IMG/VR virus record: IMGVR_UViG_3300017782_000287
Location: 1-20,942 of that record
DNA: 20,942 nucleotides
Direction: 5' to 3' (one strand)
Origin: a virus
In this document: piece after piece, positions 11,733 to 16,714 of the stretch
How positions within the stretch are numbered: the stretch's first letter is position 1
Layout of the letters: every line of letters starts with the position of its first letter
Program-made: the position numbers and the translations under genes
Notes under the pieces: model-generated
What the model saw: only the letters and a program-made list of their open reading frames with translations
Database searches by the model: none
What the model was told of the DNA's origin: nothing

Positions 11733-12356
11733 ATGGGATCTAAACGAATCCACAAAAAAGAGGACAAGAAGTTTCGTGATTTCTTATATCTAGACAATAA
11801 ACCAGACTCTCCCGCTAAGTTTTACTATATAGCCATACGATGGGCTAGAAAAAACTCTACACTAAAGCCTAGACAGATAGAAGCCCTGTTCTTTATGCAC
11901 GACCTAGAGTTCTTTACTTGCCAATGGTTAGGTAAACAGCTAAAGGTTAGTTACTTTCAAACTAAGGATAAACTGATAGGCCCACTAGTGCGTGAGGGTT
12001 ACTTATTTAAGTACTTTGATAGAAGAGCTGTTGGGTATGAAGACGACAGTATGTGGTTTAGAGATGAGAATAGGTTTAACTATAGAGTTAGATACTCTCT
12101 GACTCAGAAGTCAAAGCTGTTCATTGCAAAGATGTATAGGATTATGGCTGGGGAAACAAAAGTAGAAACAGACTATGACGAATCCACCATTGCTAAGGAC
12201 AGACCCGATAAGTCAAGGGGTGGCCCTAGAAAGGTTAAGAAGAAAAGACTCAAAGGTTTTGAGGACTCTCCTTTAGGTAAAAAGATTATTTCGAATCAGA
12301 ATGCTTATCGACAACACGAAACGGCATCTCAAGAGCAGCACCCTCGTGAGGAATAA
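11733..12356 (+). CDS. Winged-helix-like protein, candidate late-gene regulator
   Basis: The 207-residue protein is basic. Residues about 43-110 (LKPRQIEALFFMHDLEFF, WLGKQLKVSY, TKDKLIGPLVREGYLFKYF, then a beta hairpin and YRVRYSLTQKSKLFIAKMYR) follow the helix-helix-helix-wing order of MarR-like winged-helix proteins: a recognition helix, a beta wing and a C-terminal helix after a Y-x-L-T-x-K-x-K turn. The C-terminal 60 residues are Lys/Arg-rich and look disordered (RGGPRKVKKKRLKGF). It is the only rightward gene within the leftward late block, and its promoter overlaps the late promoter of the fibre operon. Regulation of that promoter, including its own, is an inference from layout. Its 3' end overlaps a leftward gene by 71 bases. 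Confidence 0.7.
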   Translation: MGSKRIHKKEDKKFRDFLYLDNKPDSPAKFYYIAIRWARKNSTLKPRQIEALFFMHDLEFFTCQWLGKQLKVSYFQTKDKLIGPLVREGYLFKYFDRRAVGYEDDSMWFRDENRFNYRVRYSLTQKSKLFIAKMYRIMAGETKVETDYDESTIAKDRPDKSRGGPRKVKKKRLKGFEDSPLGKKIISNQNAYRQHETASQEQHPREE

Positions 12357-13091: not shown

Positions 13092-13407
13092 CTGCGTAGA
13101 AACAAGCTTTTACTTTGTAATGGGTAGGTGTCATATTCCCAGCTTTAACAGCAGCCTTTACAGCTTTAGTAGCCTCCTCTAATGTATCAGCCTTTACCAT
13201 AACCATCTGCTCATTGCTCATATAACCTCCTTTGTCATACTCCATATAGCCACCGCCACCATACTCAACCATTCCTCCGCCTTCATATTCTTTAGACAGC
13301 ATCTTCTTTGCCATCTCTCTTTGCTTAGGATCTTCAAGTAAAGCTTTTAGCATACCACCAGAAGCATACTCCATCATTCCACCTTTTCCGTACTTCTTAA
13401 TCTTCAT
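13081..13407 (-). CDS. Gly/Tyr/Met-rich small protein
   Basis: The 108-residue protein has two parts. Residues 1-66 carry repeated G-G-x-M-x-E-Y type units: GKGGMMEYASGGML, then GGGMVEYGGGGYMEYDKGGY, separated by a Lys/Glu helix (LLEDPKQREMAKKMLSKEYE). Residues 67-108 look globular (EQMVMVKADTLEEATKAVKA, then HYKVKACFY). The repeats may be a flexible or self-associating region. I do not recognise a family. It overlaps the endolysin gene upstream and the lysozyme-like gene downstream by 11 bases each, so it is tightly coupled to both, which suggests a part in virion or lysis functions. It lacks a membrane segment, so it is not a typical holin. Confidence 0.65.
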   Translation of the reverse strand: MKIKKYGKGGMMEYASGGMLKALLEDPKQREMAKKMLSKEYEGGGMVEYGGGGYMEYDKGGYMSNEQMVMVKADTLEEATKAVKAAVKAGNMTPTHYKVKACFYADED

Positions 13408-13867
13408 AATTCAAATATTTAGTTTTTCCGTTTTTCTTTACTGCCTTAAGTATTTGTTTTCTGTTCTTACCATAGTTATATGATACGTGTACCCAATCGG
13501 GGCATTCCTCCGAACCGAATTCCCAAATTAATTGATCAAACACAAAATTATCTTTTATATTATGAAATACTTCAGCATTCTTGTAATCACAGTCCCCTGT
13601 GCATATATCTATATCAGCCGCAGCTCCCTTGATAGCACAATGCTGTGAGGTAGCACTCCCACCGATAGCAGTATTCAAAGCAGGACTTCTATATCCACTT
13701 GTAATAACAATAGGCCCCATAAGATCTCTTAAGGGTTGTAATACTTTTTCACATAGTTCTGTTAGGTTTTCTATTTGCTGTTCATCGGGTGTATTATCTA
13801 TGTCTCTACGCTTAGCCGTAACAGACCTAGTCATCTCTTTTAATGTAAAGTTTTTACTTAGCTTCAT
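13397..13867 (-). CDS. Peptidase M15-family endolysin (D-Ala-D-Ala-type)
   Basis: The 156-residue protein matches the zinc peptidase M15_3 fold. It opens SKNFTLKEMTRS, then ITSGYRSPALNTAIGGS, the SxH motif in TSQHCAIKGAAADIDI (about 79-94), and DQLIWEFG with PDWVHVSY (about 124-134), whose His is the third zinc ligand. Such enzymes cut peptide cross-links in peptidoglycan and serve phages as endolysins. The usual spacing is S-x-H-x-x-G-x-A-x-D; here there are four residues between His and Gly, as if two had been inserted. There is no signal peptide, so release would need a holin, which is not seen nearby. It is the first gene of the leftward operon and starts seven bases after a TATCTTTG box, so its message may be almost leaderless. 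Confidence 0.88.
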   Translation of the reverse strand: MKLSKNFTLKEMTRSVTAKRRDIDNTPDEQQIENLTELCEKVLQPLRDLMGPIVITSGYRSPALNTAIGGSATSQHCAIKGAAADIDICTGDCDYKNAEVFHNIKDNFVFDQLIWEFGSEECPDWVHVSYNYGKNRKQILKAVKKNGKTKYLNYED

Positions 13868-13899: not shown

Positions 13900-14178
13900 A
13901 TGGAAGACCAACAAGAAACAAGTAAGGAAAAAAGGATAAGAAGGAAAAGGGAATATCGTAACAGAAAGAGAAAAAGATTAGACGATTATAAAAAGACATT
14001 AAGTTGTGAGATCTGTGGAGAGAGCCATACTCGATGTTTAGAATTCCACCACATAGATCCTTCTACCAAAAGAGGACACATAGCCGACTTAATTAAAGAT
14101 TGTTCTTTTGATTTAGTTATGGAAGAGATTAAGCTGTGCAGAGTTCTCTGCGCTAACTGCCATAGAAAGGAGCATTAA
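13900..14178 (+). CDS. HNH endonuclease
   Basis: Translation from the ATG at 13900 gives 92 residues; an upstream in-frame TTG is less likely. After a very basic helix (about 8-35, mostly Lys/Arg/Glu) there is CEIC, then LEFHHIDP, then LCRVLCANCHRKEH. This is an HNH nuclease with a zinc-binding CxxC...CxxC pair and HH-N-H catalytic residues. In phages such small HNH proteins work in packaging (often next to the terminase) or as homing nucleases. Here it is alone, divergent from the lysis operon and at the border of the control region. A homing or selfish role is possible but nothing nearby (intron, split gene) supports it. Confidence 0.85.
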   Translation: MEDQQETSKEKRIRRKREYRNRKRKRLDDYKKTLSCEICGESHTRCLEFHHIDPSTKRGHIADLIKDCSFDLVMEEIKLCRVLCANCHRKEH

Positions 14179-14188
14179 GAGATTTACT

Positions 14189-14203
14189 TAAAGTATTACT
14201 TTA
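14189..14203. repeat. Inverted repeat upstream of a promoter
   Basis: TAAAGTA, one base, TACTTTA forms a perfect 7-base-arm inverted repeat. It lies 10 bases after the HNH stop and four bases before the TTG of the next promoter. It could be a weak terminator for the HNH gene or an operator. Confidence 0.4.
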
Positions 14204-14206
14204 GGG

Positions 14207-14237
14207 TTGCATCTTAATTTTTTTTGTTGTAACTTCG
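14207..14237 (+). promoter_or_regulatory. Bacteroidota-type promoter of the central region
   Basis: TTG (14207-14209), a 20-base spacer that includes an eight-T run, then TAACTTCG (14230-14237). The -7 box is a one-base variant of TAnnTTTG and is identical to the box before the 42-residue gene at 19327. Transcription would start near 14243. Confidence 0.5.
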
Positions 14238-14242
14238 TCTAA

Positions 14243-14390
14243 GTACTGCGAGGTAGCAACGATACTCAATACTTCACGTAATGAACTATCTCGTCTCGCC
14301 ATACGAAACTCTCAACTTAAATACTACTGAAGTGCGGGGGTCTCAAAACCCCAAGCACGAAAGGACAGAACACTAAGTGAGACTCCATTC
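14243..14390 (+). ncRNA. Candidate structured RNA with possible pseudoknot
   Basis: This stretch is clearly less AT-rich than its surroundings and follows directly on a promoter. GTGC-GGGG (14332-14339) pairs with CCCC-AA-GCAC (14349-14358). The loop word GTCTCA (14340-14345) is complementary to TGAGAC (14378-14383), giving an H-type pseudoknot, or alternatively a nine-pair helix GGGGTCTCA/TGAGACTCC (14337-14345 with 14378-14386) that excludes the first stem. Upstream, GAGGTAG (14250-14256) can pair with CTATCTC (14286-14292). It does not match tmRNA, RNase P, 6S or tRNA features that I can recognise. A 31-codon ORF overlaps it, so a coding role is the main alternative. Confidence 0.35.
14281..14376 (+). 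CDS. Possible 31-residue peptide
   Basis: An ATG 44 bases after the predicted transcript start opens a short frame reading MNYLVSPYETLNLNTTEVRG then SQNPKHERTEH before TAA. There is no A-rich leader like those of the other rightward genes. The frame remains open for 14 more codons after the TAA, so it could be the remnant of something longer. It lies across the possible pseudoknot. Confidence 0.2.
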   Translation: MNYLVSPYETLNLNTTEVRGSQNPKHERTEH

Positions 14391-14902
14391 CAATTTGTAT
14401 ACGGGCGTATTATATTCATAATTTTGCTGTTACCCCATTGCTATTTAACAGCTCTATCACAAGACATATCTGGCCTTCTGACGTTCCCCGAAAATTTTCT
14501 GAGAAATGTTTAGTGAGGGGATTATATACATATTATAACGACACGATCAGCAAACCGAAACGAATTCTGCAACCCATCCCCCTCATTTTGAAACGCATTT
14601 TCTGCAAATATTCTAGCTTTTGTATGTAGCATATAGATATAACTAATAACTGTAGCTATTACAAAGTATTGAACTATTTAAATGATTTTTGAGTCCCTTA
14701 TGGAAGCGGAACAATCCCTCCACCAATTACCCTTATATATATATTACAGCTCAGGGAACATTATCAGATGCGCTTGTGTAAATCTGTTGCAATATGTAAG
14801 CTGTTGATTATCAAGTTGCGATACATATGTTATTAACAATTTGTTTATTAAAATATATTTTCTTACATTAGCAAAATATTAATCAAACAAACAACACAAA
14901 TT
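14391..14902. other. Gene-free control region or possible origin
   Basis: I find no convincing gene in these 512 bases. Contents: the 10-base inverted repeat TACGGGCGTA (14400-14409); the inverted repeat GCTGTTA/TAACAGC (14426-14432 and 14446-14452); TGAGGGG (14514-14520) against CCCCTCA (14579-14585); an imperfect direct repeat GAAACGAATTCTGCAA / GAAACGCATTTTCTGCAA (14557-14572 and 14590-14607); the inverted repeat TTGAT-T-ATCAA near 14804; and an AT-rich stretch 14821-14902 leading into the first early gene. The position between leftward late and rightward early genes, with repeats beside AT-rich DNA, fits a control region or replication origin, but that is inference. Confidence 0.4.
14557..14607. 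repeat. Pair of imperfect direct repeats
   Basis: GAAACGAATTCTGCAA (14557-14572) and GAAACGCATTTTCTGCAA (14590-14607) differ by one substitution and a two-base insertion. Starts are 33 bases apart, about three helical turns, so proteins bound to each would lie on the same face. Confidence 0.4.
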
Positions 14903-15187
14903 ATGAGCAATTTCACTTTAAAAAACCCGAAAAAATTTTATATATGGTCAGTAAAATCATATAGAAACCCTAGAACAATTTATATAACTGATATATTAGC
15001 ACCAAAAGATTTTAATTTTCAAGTTGGTCAATTTGTTGGTACAAAAATTAACGAAATGAAGTTAATTGGATATAAATTTATAAAAGACCATTATGGTAGA
15101 GATGTCGAGGAGGTTTTTGAAAATACAGGAAAATTTATGAAACAAGAAATTATTGATATTCATAATAATTCTTTTAAGGCATACTGA
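14903..15187 (+). CDS. Unknown 94-residue protein, first gene of the rightward module
   Basis: The protein opens MSNFTLKNPKKFYIWSVKSY and is rich in Lys, Ile, Phe and Tyr, with a predicted beta-rich centre (RTIYITDIL, NFQVGQFVGTKI, MKLIGYKFI) and a helical end. I do not recognise a domain. The start is supported by an A-rich leader (AATCAAACAAACAACACAAA) of the kind that precedes most genes of this module. A hairpin begins five bases after the stop. Confidence 0.7.
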   Translation: MSNFTLKNPKKFYIWSVKSYRNPRTIYITDILAPKDFNFQVGQFVGTKINEMKLIGYKFIKDHYGRDVEEVFENTGKFMKQEIIDIHNNSFKAY

Positions 15188-15760: not shown

Positions 15761-16714
15761 ATGAAAGCTGAAATCTATAATAAAATTAACGACATCGTAA
15801 TCGCAGGATTAGAAAAGAAAGGTATGAAATGGTTCAGACCGTGGAGGAATGCAAACGGACTCGTTGATGGTGCATACAATTACACTACAAAGAGAGCTTA
15901 TAACGGGTTTAATATATTCCTGTTAAATGCTGTTATGGCTGATCAAGGATACGAGTTTAATCAATGGTTAACATTCAAGCAAGTATCAGCTCTTAAAGGA
16001 AAGGTGATCAAAGGTCAAAAAGCTACAGATGTTTACCTTTGGAACAACGGTTATTTTGATAATGTCAAGAATGTTTACATCAGCTCAAAGGATGTAAAGA
16101 ATATTAATCTTAAAGAGAAGACAAAAACAGGATCACTTCGCTACAGGAAGACCTACAGCATTAGATTCTATAAAGTATTTAATGTATCACAATGTGAAGG
16201 TATTGAACCTCATAAAACAGAAGATAAAGTAGAGGTTATCAATGAGCCAATCGAAGTAGCTGAAAGTTTAGTTAAGGACTTTGTTGAAAGAGAAAATAAC
16301 TTTAAGATTGTTCATAGAGAAAACAGAGCATATTACAATAAGACAAATGATTTTATTAATATGCCTGAGATGAATTCATTCATCGGATCAGAATCTTACT
16401 ACAAGACATTGTTTCACGAAATGGTGCATAGTACAGGACACAATTCTAGACTCAACAGGAAGACCTTAGAAGAGGTTTCATCATTCGGTAGCGTAGAGTA
16501 TTCAAAGGAGGAGTTGGTCGCTGAGATCGGCTCAATGTACTTAACAGGTCTATTAGGGATTGAATGTGAGGATACAATGGAGAATTCTCAAGCATATATC
16601 AAAGGATGGTGTAAGCATCTGAGAGAAGCCAAAGATGAGTGCATATACGCAATGCAACAGGCAACCAAAGCTGTTAACTATATAAAGGAAGGTAAAGCAG
16701 TAAATATTAACTAG
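15761..16714 (+). CDS. ArdC-like antirestriction protein
   Basis: The 317-residue protein has the two-part plan of ArdC proteins. The N-terminal domain (about 1-140) includes MKWFRPWRN, the YNGFNIFLLN segment and GQKATDVYLW, typical of the single-strand DNA-binding ArdC_N domain. The C-terminal zincin-like metallopeptidase domain has LFHEMVHSTGH (His219-Glu220...His223) and EELVAEIGSMYL (Glu255 as third ligand), all intact. Known ArdC proteins protect incoming single-stranded DNA from host restriction. Expression early in infection fits its place in the rightward module. It is preceded by a two-tier hairpin and an A-rich leader, with no promoter of its own visible. Confidence 0.85.
   Translation: MKAEIYNKINDIVIAGLEKKGMKWFRPWRNANGLVDGAYNYTTKRAYNGFNIFLLNAVMADQGYEFNQWLTFKQVSALKGKVIKGQKATDVYLWNNGYFDNVKNVYISSKDVKNINLKEKTKTGSLRYRKTYSIRFYKVFNVSQCEGIEPHKTEDKVEVINEPIEVAESLVKDFVERENNFKIVHRENRAYYNKTNDFINMPEMNSFIGSESYYKTLFHEMVHSTGHNSRLNRKTLEEVSSFGSVEYSKEELVAEIGSMYLTGLLGIECEDTMENSQAYIKGWCKHLREAKDECIYAMQQATKAVNYIKEGKAVNIN

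Follow-up and report, generated by a model that had tools for sequence, protein, structure and literature searches.

A putative structured noncoding RNA gene beside a conserved DNA block in uncultured Bacteroidetes phages

The gap between the late and early genes of an uncultured Bacteroidetes phage very probably contains a stand-alone structured RNA that is absent from Rfam. This reading agrees with an initial annotation of the DNA, which had proposed a promoter-led structured RNA as a candidate, and it rests on sequence comparison, which shows that the promoter and structure are conserved, that the central hairpin covaries in related clades, and that the promoter is linked to a conserved DNA block. 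The best overall explanation, although we would put it at somewhat below an even chance, is a stand-alone noncoding RNA gene of the phage that serves the neighboring DNA module.

The window, by which we mean the whole 20,942-nt stretch of DNA analyzed, is a 20.9-kb piece of an uncultured phage (IMG/VR record). Its late genes run leftward and encode a portal protein, a terminase matching phrog_6681, and an M15 endolysin (13397–13867), and its early genes run rightward, with the first ORF at 14903. The two gene sets are separated by 0.7 kb of noncoding DNA and an HNH endonuclease gene (Table 1). The HNH gene was found in the relatives L006/L008 and L088 and was not detected in the other relatives tested; it may be mobile. 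The nearest named relatives by terminase were Podoviridae ctfjg026 (MW202828; 48% identity) and the Flavobacterium elemo phages (40%). Searches with blastn against named phages for the window region, and against named phages and plasmids for the related element L061, returned only chance short AT-rich or isolated matches. A rightward gene within the leftward late operon (11733–12356) had no Pfam or PHROG match and is kept by relatives at 28–97% identity, and an ArdC-type anti-restriction protein (ArdcN plus zincin-like peptidase domain; 15761–16714) is encoded early in the rightward operon.

Table 1. Features of the window in and around the gap between late and early genes.
Feature	Position	Strand	Description
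HNH endonuclease gene	13911–14178		Small; directly before the RNA promoter
RNA promoter	14207–14237	+	Bacteroidetes sigma-A type, TTG-N20-TAACTTCG; TTG 14207–14209, 20 nt, TAACTTCG 14230–14237
5' domain of the structured noncoding RNA	14242–14420	+	About 180 nt; from conservation and folding
P1 helix	14248–14299	+	GCGAG 14248–14252/CUCGC 14295–14299; inner hairpin UCA-UAC/GUA-UGA; from predicted pair probabilities
P1 alternative	14248–14256/14286–14294		GCGAGGUAG/CUAUCUCGU
31-codon ORF	14281–14376	+	ATG 14281, MNYLVSPYETLNLNTTEVRGSQNPKHERTEH; judged not a gene
Closing helix	14298–14406	+	GCC-AUACGAA 14298–14307/UUUGUAU-ACG-GGC 14394–14406; predicted
Nested helix	14310–14382	+	UCUC 14310–14313/GAGA 14379–14382 and CUUA 14316–14319/UAAG 14374–14377
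P3 hairpin	14332–14358	+	GUGC 14332–14335/GCAC 14355–14358; GGGGU 14337–14341/ACCCC 14348–14352
P5 hairpin	14426–14452	+	GCUGUUA/UAACAGC; pair probability 0.97
Conserved DNA block	14512–14625	+	GGGGATTATATACAT...CCGAAACG...AGCTTTT; separate module adjoining the RNA, missed by the initial annotation
GGAACAATCCC motif	14708–14718	+	Its complement is a repeat of the block's GGGGATTRT arm
Early promoter	14841–14871	+	TTG-N20-TACATTAG, for the first early gene (ORF 14903); read from the sequence; also in L008

The promoter lies where it had been annotated, matches the flavobacterial sigma-A consensus, and leads into a noncoding region that folds. The -7 box of flavobacterial sigma-A is TAnnTTTG and spans -12 to -5 (PMC9723704); since TAACTTCG fits this box, transcription is predicted to start near 14242. 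Over 14238–14420, the window is identical to L008 at 180 of 183 positions (3 differences) and to L088 at 176 of 183 (7 differences, plus 2 gaps), whereas the adjacent HNH gene matches at 241 of 268 and 234 of 268 positions, respectively (27 and 34 differences). In these close relatives the 5' RNA domain is thus 96–98% identical to the window and the HNH gene 87–90%, and the comparison shows purifying selection on the noncoding sequence. Differences climb past 14420 (over 14421–14510, 5 of 90 against L008 and 16 of 90 against L088), so that the constrained RNA measures about 180 nt, or perhaps 210 nt with P5. The annotated feature was therefore present but had been cut short, its conservation and structure reaching about 14420 and possibly 14452.

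Folding of the single sequence gave a modest signal (z = -1.94 for 14238–14400 alone and -0.04 for 14238–14540), so the case rests on comparison. Among the elements whose promoter faces the conserved block (the PLUS class), 39 of 40 have a first 185 nt that folds more stably than its dinucleotide-shuffled versions, with z = -2.2 for the window. L016 and L024 also contain the GCGAG and CUCGC words of P1. Pair probabilities of the closing helix are 0.52–0.63 in the window and 0.84–0.90 in L088, and those of the nested helix are 0.92–0.95 in the window and similar in L006 and L088. P3, with a CUCAAA loop and a 3' AA bulge, corresponds to the strong stem of the initial annotation and is predicted with pair probabilities of 0.97–1.00. 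The GCUGU-type stem of P5 reappears in other clades (GCUGUC/GACAGC in L183). TAGCTGT was rejected as a genome-wide leader motif. No intrinsic terminator was found in the RNA of the window, and no conserved one in its class; P4 or P5 could form the 3' end of the RNA.

In other clades, compensatory change in the hairpin at the place of P3 is strong. In the window's own group (group A), comprising only about six known sequences of which one is incomplete, covariation is thin, L006 and L088 differing by a U-A to G-C replacement that maintains the pairing of P3. Across 10 diverse relatives, whose P3 loop differs from that of the window, 95.5% of cells at this place are paired, and both partners have changed in five of nine pairs. 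Such two-sided change was counted in 11 cells, compared with 3.2 after shuffling. The covariation score was 0.363 compared with 0.110 for shuffled alignments, none of 500 shuffles reaching the observed value, and sliding the partners by 1–3 columns lowered the paired fraction to 28–54%. A pairwise test of the clade B hairpin counted 154 compatible double changes versus 44. Variants include GGGUGUC/GACACCC, GGGGGUC/GACCCCC, and AAAGGGAC/GUCCCUUU, with the loop GUCGCxUAAGCAGA. A covariance model of P3 from clades B, C, and F recovered its own clades, gave at most marginal matches elsewhere, and none in the window; we therefore do not claim the same detailed fold for the P3 of the window. Homology of helices across the most divergent groups was judged by position and pairing, with no stand-alone alignment. 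Comparison of whole-sequence folds across very divergent groups was uninformative, many predicted helices being wrong, and when local hairpins were compared, clade B alone gave a signal, apart from a weak one in clade E. Searches of viral contigs with the pattern GGGGTCTCAAAACCCC returned four apparently unrelated loci, and the P4 pattern TACRGGCGYAYTRTATTC returned 21 loci, 17 of them new and likewise apparently unrelated.

The initial annotation had also considered a tiny gene, and the 31-codon ORF it described is present, but is not conserved beyond near-identical relatives. Its frame stays open in L008 and L088, where the changes comprise three replacements and about one silent substitution, and a corresponding ORF is absent in L016 and L019. 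Comparison of relatives, which the annotation had suggested for distinguishing covariation from synonymous substitution, thus revealed covariation of the hairpin in related clades and no codon-type conservation of the ORF; a protein-coding role is very improbable. A pseudoknot had been proposed as well, and its complementary words exist in the window (GTCTCA at 14340–14345 and TGAGAC at 14378–14383), a six-nucleotide match between the loop and the next ~45 nt being mildly unusual (about 0.03 expected by simple arithmetic). The proposal fared poorly in comparison: the loop of L008 reads TTCTCA, which breaks one pair, and the words are absent in L016 and L019. UGAGA is moreover predicted to prefer nested pairing with the upstream UCUC (14310–14313, p ~0.95), outcompeting the pseudoknot. 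The impression that the RNA belongs to no recognizable family was borne out by Rfam 15, which gave no match at the gathering threshold in the window, none up to E = 10 in 14170–14910, none in 11 related loci, and none in L200 at E = 1. GOLLD and ROOL are phage-encoded, elaborately folded noncoding RNAs of ~600–800+ nt, function undescribed, that often lie near tRNAs (PMC12286853). The present RNA differs in being smaller and in having no Rfam match, and the window contains no tRNA genes.

Downstream of the RNA lies the conserved DNA block, which nhmmer matched in at least 102 distinct elements, gathered from terminase relatives, M15 relatives, and two block patterns. Its order is roughly GGGGATWATATACATA, a variable GC-rich stretch, GAAAC, CCCC, and GCGTTTT. 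A (G)ACAATCC motif follows 182–252 nt from the block start in the 40 elements measured, and the arms of the module are inverted, GGGGATTGT being the complement of ACAATCCCC. In the window, the module spans 14512–14718, with the GGGGATWATATACATA block and the ACAATCCC motif about 200 nt apart, inverted GGGGATTRT arms, and then C-rich DNA; it is a candidate origin or pac site. Scanning most of the records of the cultured relatives MW202828 and NC_055853 gave no match to the block, and a genome-wide scan of bacteria gave two, which we took as chance. Both GC skew and gene strand flip at the block; GC skew was dropped as proof of an origin after the test at four-fold sites, where no origin-type pattern was seen. 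Long contigs do not end at the block, and a cos-type end there was accordingly rejected.

The link between promoter and block extends through one lineage of uncultured phages. Under the strict promoter motif used, on which the counts depend, 36 of 101 elements have a promoter with a spacer of 19–20 nt pointing to the block from 290–504 nt upstream, against about 2 expected, and 33 of 101 have a promoter pointing away from it, 85–189 nt upstream, against about 1 expected (background of 0.030 per 500 nt per strand). The block-facing promoter is present in about 36–40 distinct elements, all of which have gene-free DNA between promoter and block. Neither arrangement is seen in 23–32 of the elements with the motifs applied, and no element has both orientations (Fisher p = 1.6e-8 for the exclusivity); this value overstates independence, because the orientations are states of clades that follow terminase relatedness, identity to the terminase of the window being 69–99% in the block-facing class and 62–68% in the outward class.

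In the sister clade, a strong promoter points away from the same block. At five of its loci (L283, L309, L281, L355, and L348), the predicted outward transcript of ~140 nt, on the reverse strand and upstream of the block, stops immediately ahead of the late promoter at an intrinsic terminator (e.g. CCCCCTAATATATGGGGG-TTTTTT), so that these transcripts resemble discrete small RNAs. A GUGUGUACAC-type hairpin, in which some changes appear compensatory (e.g. GUGCGUGUACGCAC in L320), is common to several other loci of this clade. Lambda OOP RNA is a comparable short independent RNA next to an origin region, transcribed away from the neighboring module; it differs in being antisense to cII, whereas no antisense target has been identified here.

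Because such a promoter adjoins the same block throughout the lineage, toward or away from it by clade, control of the module appears to be the most likely function, and we suggest, tentatively, that the RNA helps to control an adjacent origin-like or pac-like element. Host RNA polymerase with sigma-A would start at ~14242 and yield a discrete folded RNA of ~180–210 nt, comprising P1, the closing helix, the nested helix, P3, and possibly P5, that would act as RNA and not as mRNA. It would control use of the neighboring module, probably a replication origin or packaging site, somewhat in the manner of an origin-adjacent small RNA that binds a factor or sets transcription or supercoiling at the module, and would not itself be a primer. 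That the RNA is transcribed, where it ends, and that it is tied to replication or packaging are all inferred from sequence. Against this reading, the block travels with terminase and M15, and the adjacency could be mere synteny, in keeping with promoter orientations that follow terminase clades; GC skew at four-fold sites does not mark the block as an origin.

The place of the RNA beside the block would be no more than inherited synteny if this stand-alone small RNA instead acted in trans, on targets in the host or the phage, for example in host takeover, as a decoy, or as an antisense RNA. The block is 58% identical between the window and L008 although the RNA is 98% identical, so that the two sequences are not changing together, which counts against control of the module and for action in trans. 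Along this pair, identity is 98% before the block start, 51–58% after it (14516–14700), and 88% again from 14701, which suggests that the block may have been exchanged through recombination. A role in trans also agrees with the host-type promoter, which would permit transcription immediately on infection, with the variation of orientation between clades, and with the many phages that carry the block without a PLUS promoter. On the other side, no target or binding partner has been identified, and although genes on its other side have turned over, the promoter still lies no farther than 0.5 kb from the block. In our best reading, a purely trans role is possible and nearly as likely as control of the module, and a primer role is less likely.

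A replication primer, one of the functions raised by the initial annotation, would resemble ColE1 RNA II, a structured, processed primer at its origin: a transcript from 14242 would enter the block, form an R-loop, and be processed to prime DNA synthesis. Origins of T4 are likewise promoter-driven, and in both systems, as here, a promoter lies a few hundred nucleotides before the origin element, here a candidate one. The arrangement of the PLUS class is compatible with priming, as is the position of the AT-rich block between divergent operons. RNA-based replication is also known in phages, namely at the prophage origins of mycobacteriophages Alma, LadyBird, and RedRock (Wetzel et al. 2020, PMC7157519). 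There too, a noncoding RNA arises from a phage region of a few hundred nucleotides, and it has been implicated in replication; those phages are temperate parABS phages of Actinobacteria studied by RNA-seq and plasmid assays, whereas in the present case, which is built from sequence, no parABS was noticed. Unlike in ColE1 and T4, the sister-clade transcript leaves the block, and this, together with the four-fold sites, weakens the primer proposal. Sequence constraint also drops after ~14420, and R-loops are disfavored by the DNA downstream of ACAATCCC, whose RNA-like strand is rich in C. We consider priming unlikely.

The initial annotation had also mentioned a riboswitch-like element, which would act as leader or attenuator of the early operon, and the RNA has the same orientation as the early genes from 14903. 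This role is improbable: the early operon is served by a promoter of its own, which in both the window and L008 sits immediately ahead of the first ORF, ~450 nt and the conserved DNA module intervene, and the sister-clade RNA points the opposite way. Just upstream of early promoters, the sequence TTATTAACAATTTG recurs in relatives (window 14829–14845; L045 1174–1198; L064 1760–1782) and is a possible phage-specific early promoter element.

A further alternative is an RNA for packaging, or one linked to pac, whose role would resemble that of the phi29 pRNA, a structured phage RNA of ~170–180 nt and thus similar in size. In L043, L079, L213, and related elements, the loops of P3 and P4 are complementary by eye (GUCGC/GCGAC in clade B, GCGCCU/AGGCGC in clade C, and GCGCUU/AGGCGC in clade F) and possibly form a kissing contact within or between molecules; such loop-loop contacts could join copies of the RNA. 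The inverted arms of the block, about 200 nt apart, also resemble a two-ended recognition site. However, the window lacks the loop complementarity; its terminase belongs to the large terminase-plus-portal type and not to the phi29 type, so that the packaging machinery differs; and long contigs share no ends at the block. We regard this role as quite improbable.

Control of the neighboring module remains our preferred reading. The RNA represents a family new to Rfam, tied to a DNA module that occurs in one uncultured phage group and for which we found no described function. It is possible, if somewhat doubtful, that the lineage carries a compact control module, composed of a two-armed DNA element and a dedicated structured RNA gene whose direction has been switched between clades, and that this is a new system in which an RNA takes part in starting replication or packaging. 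Should the link to either process prove real, the RNA and its module would give both a marker of, and a handle on, the way in which these phages begin it.
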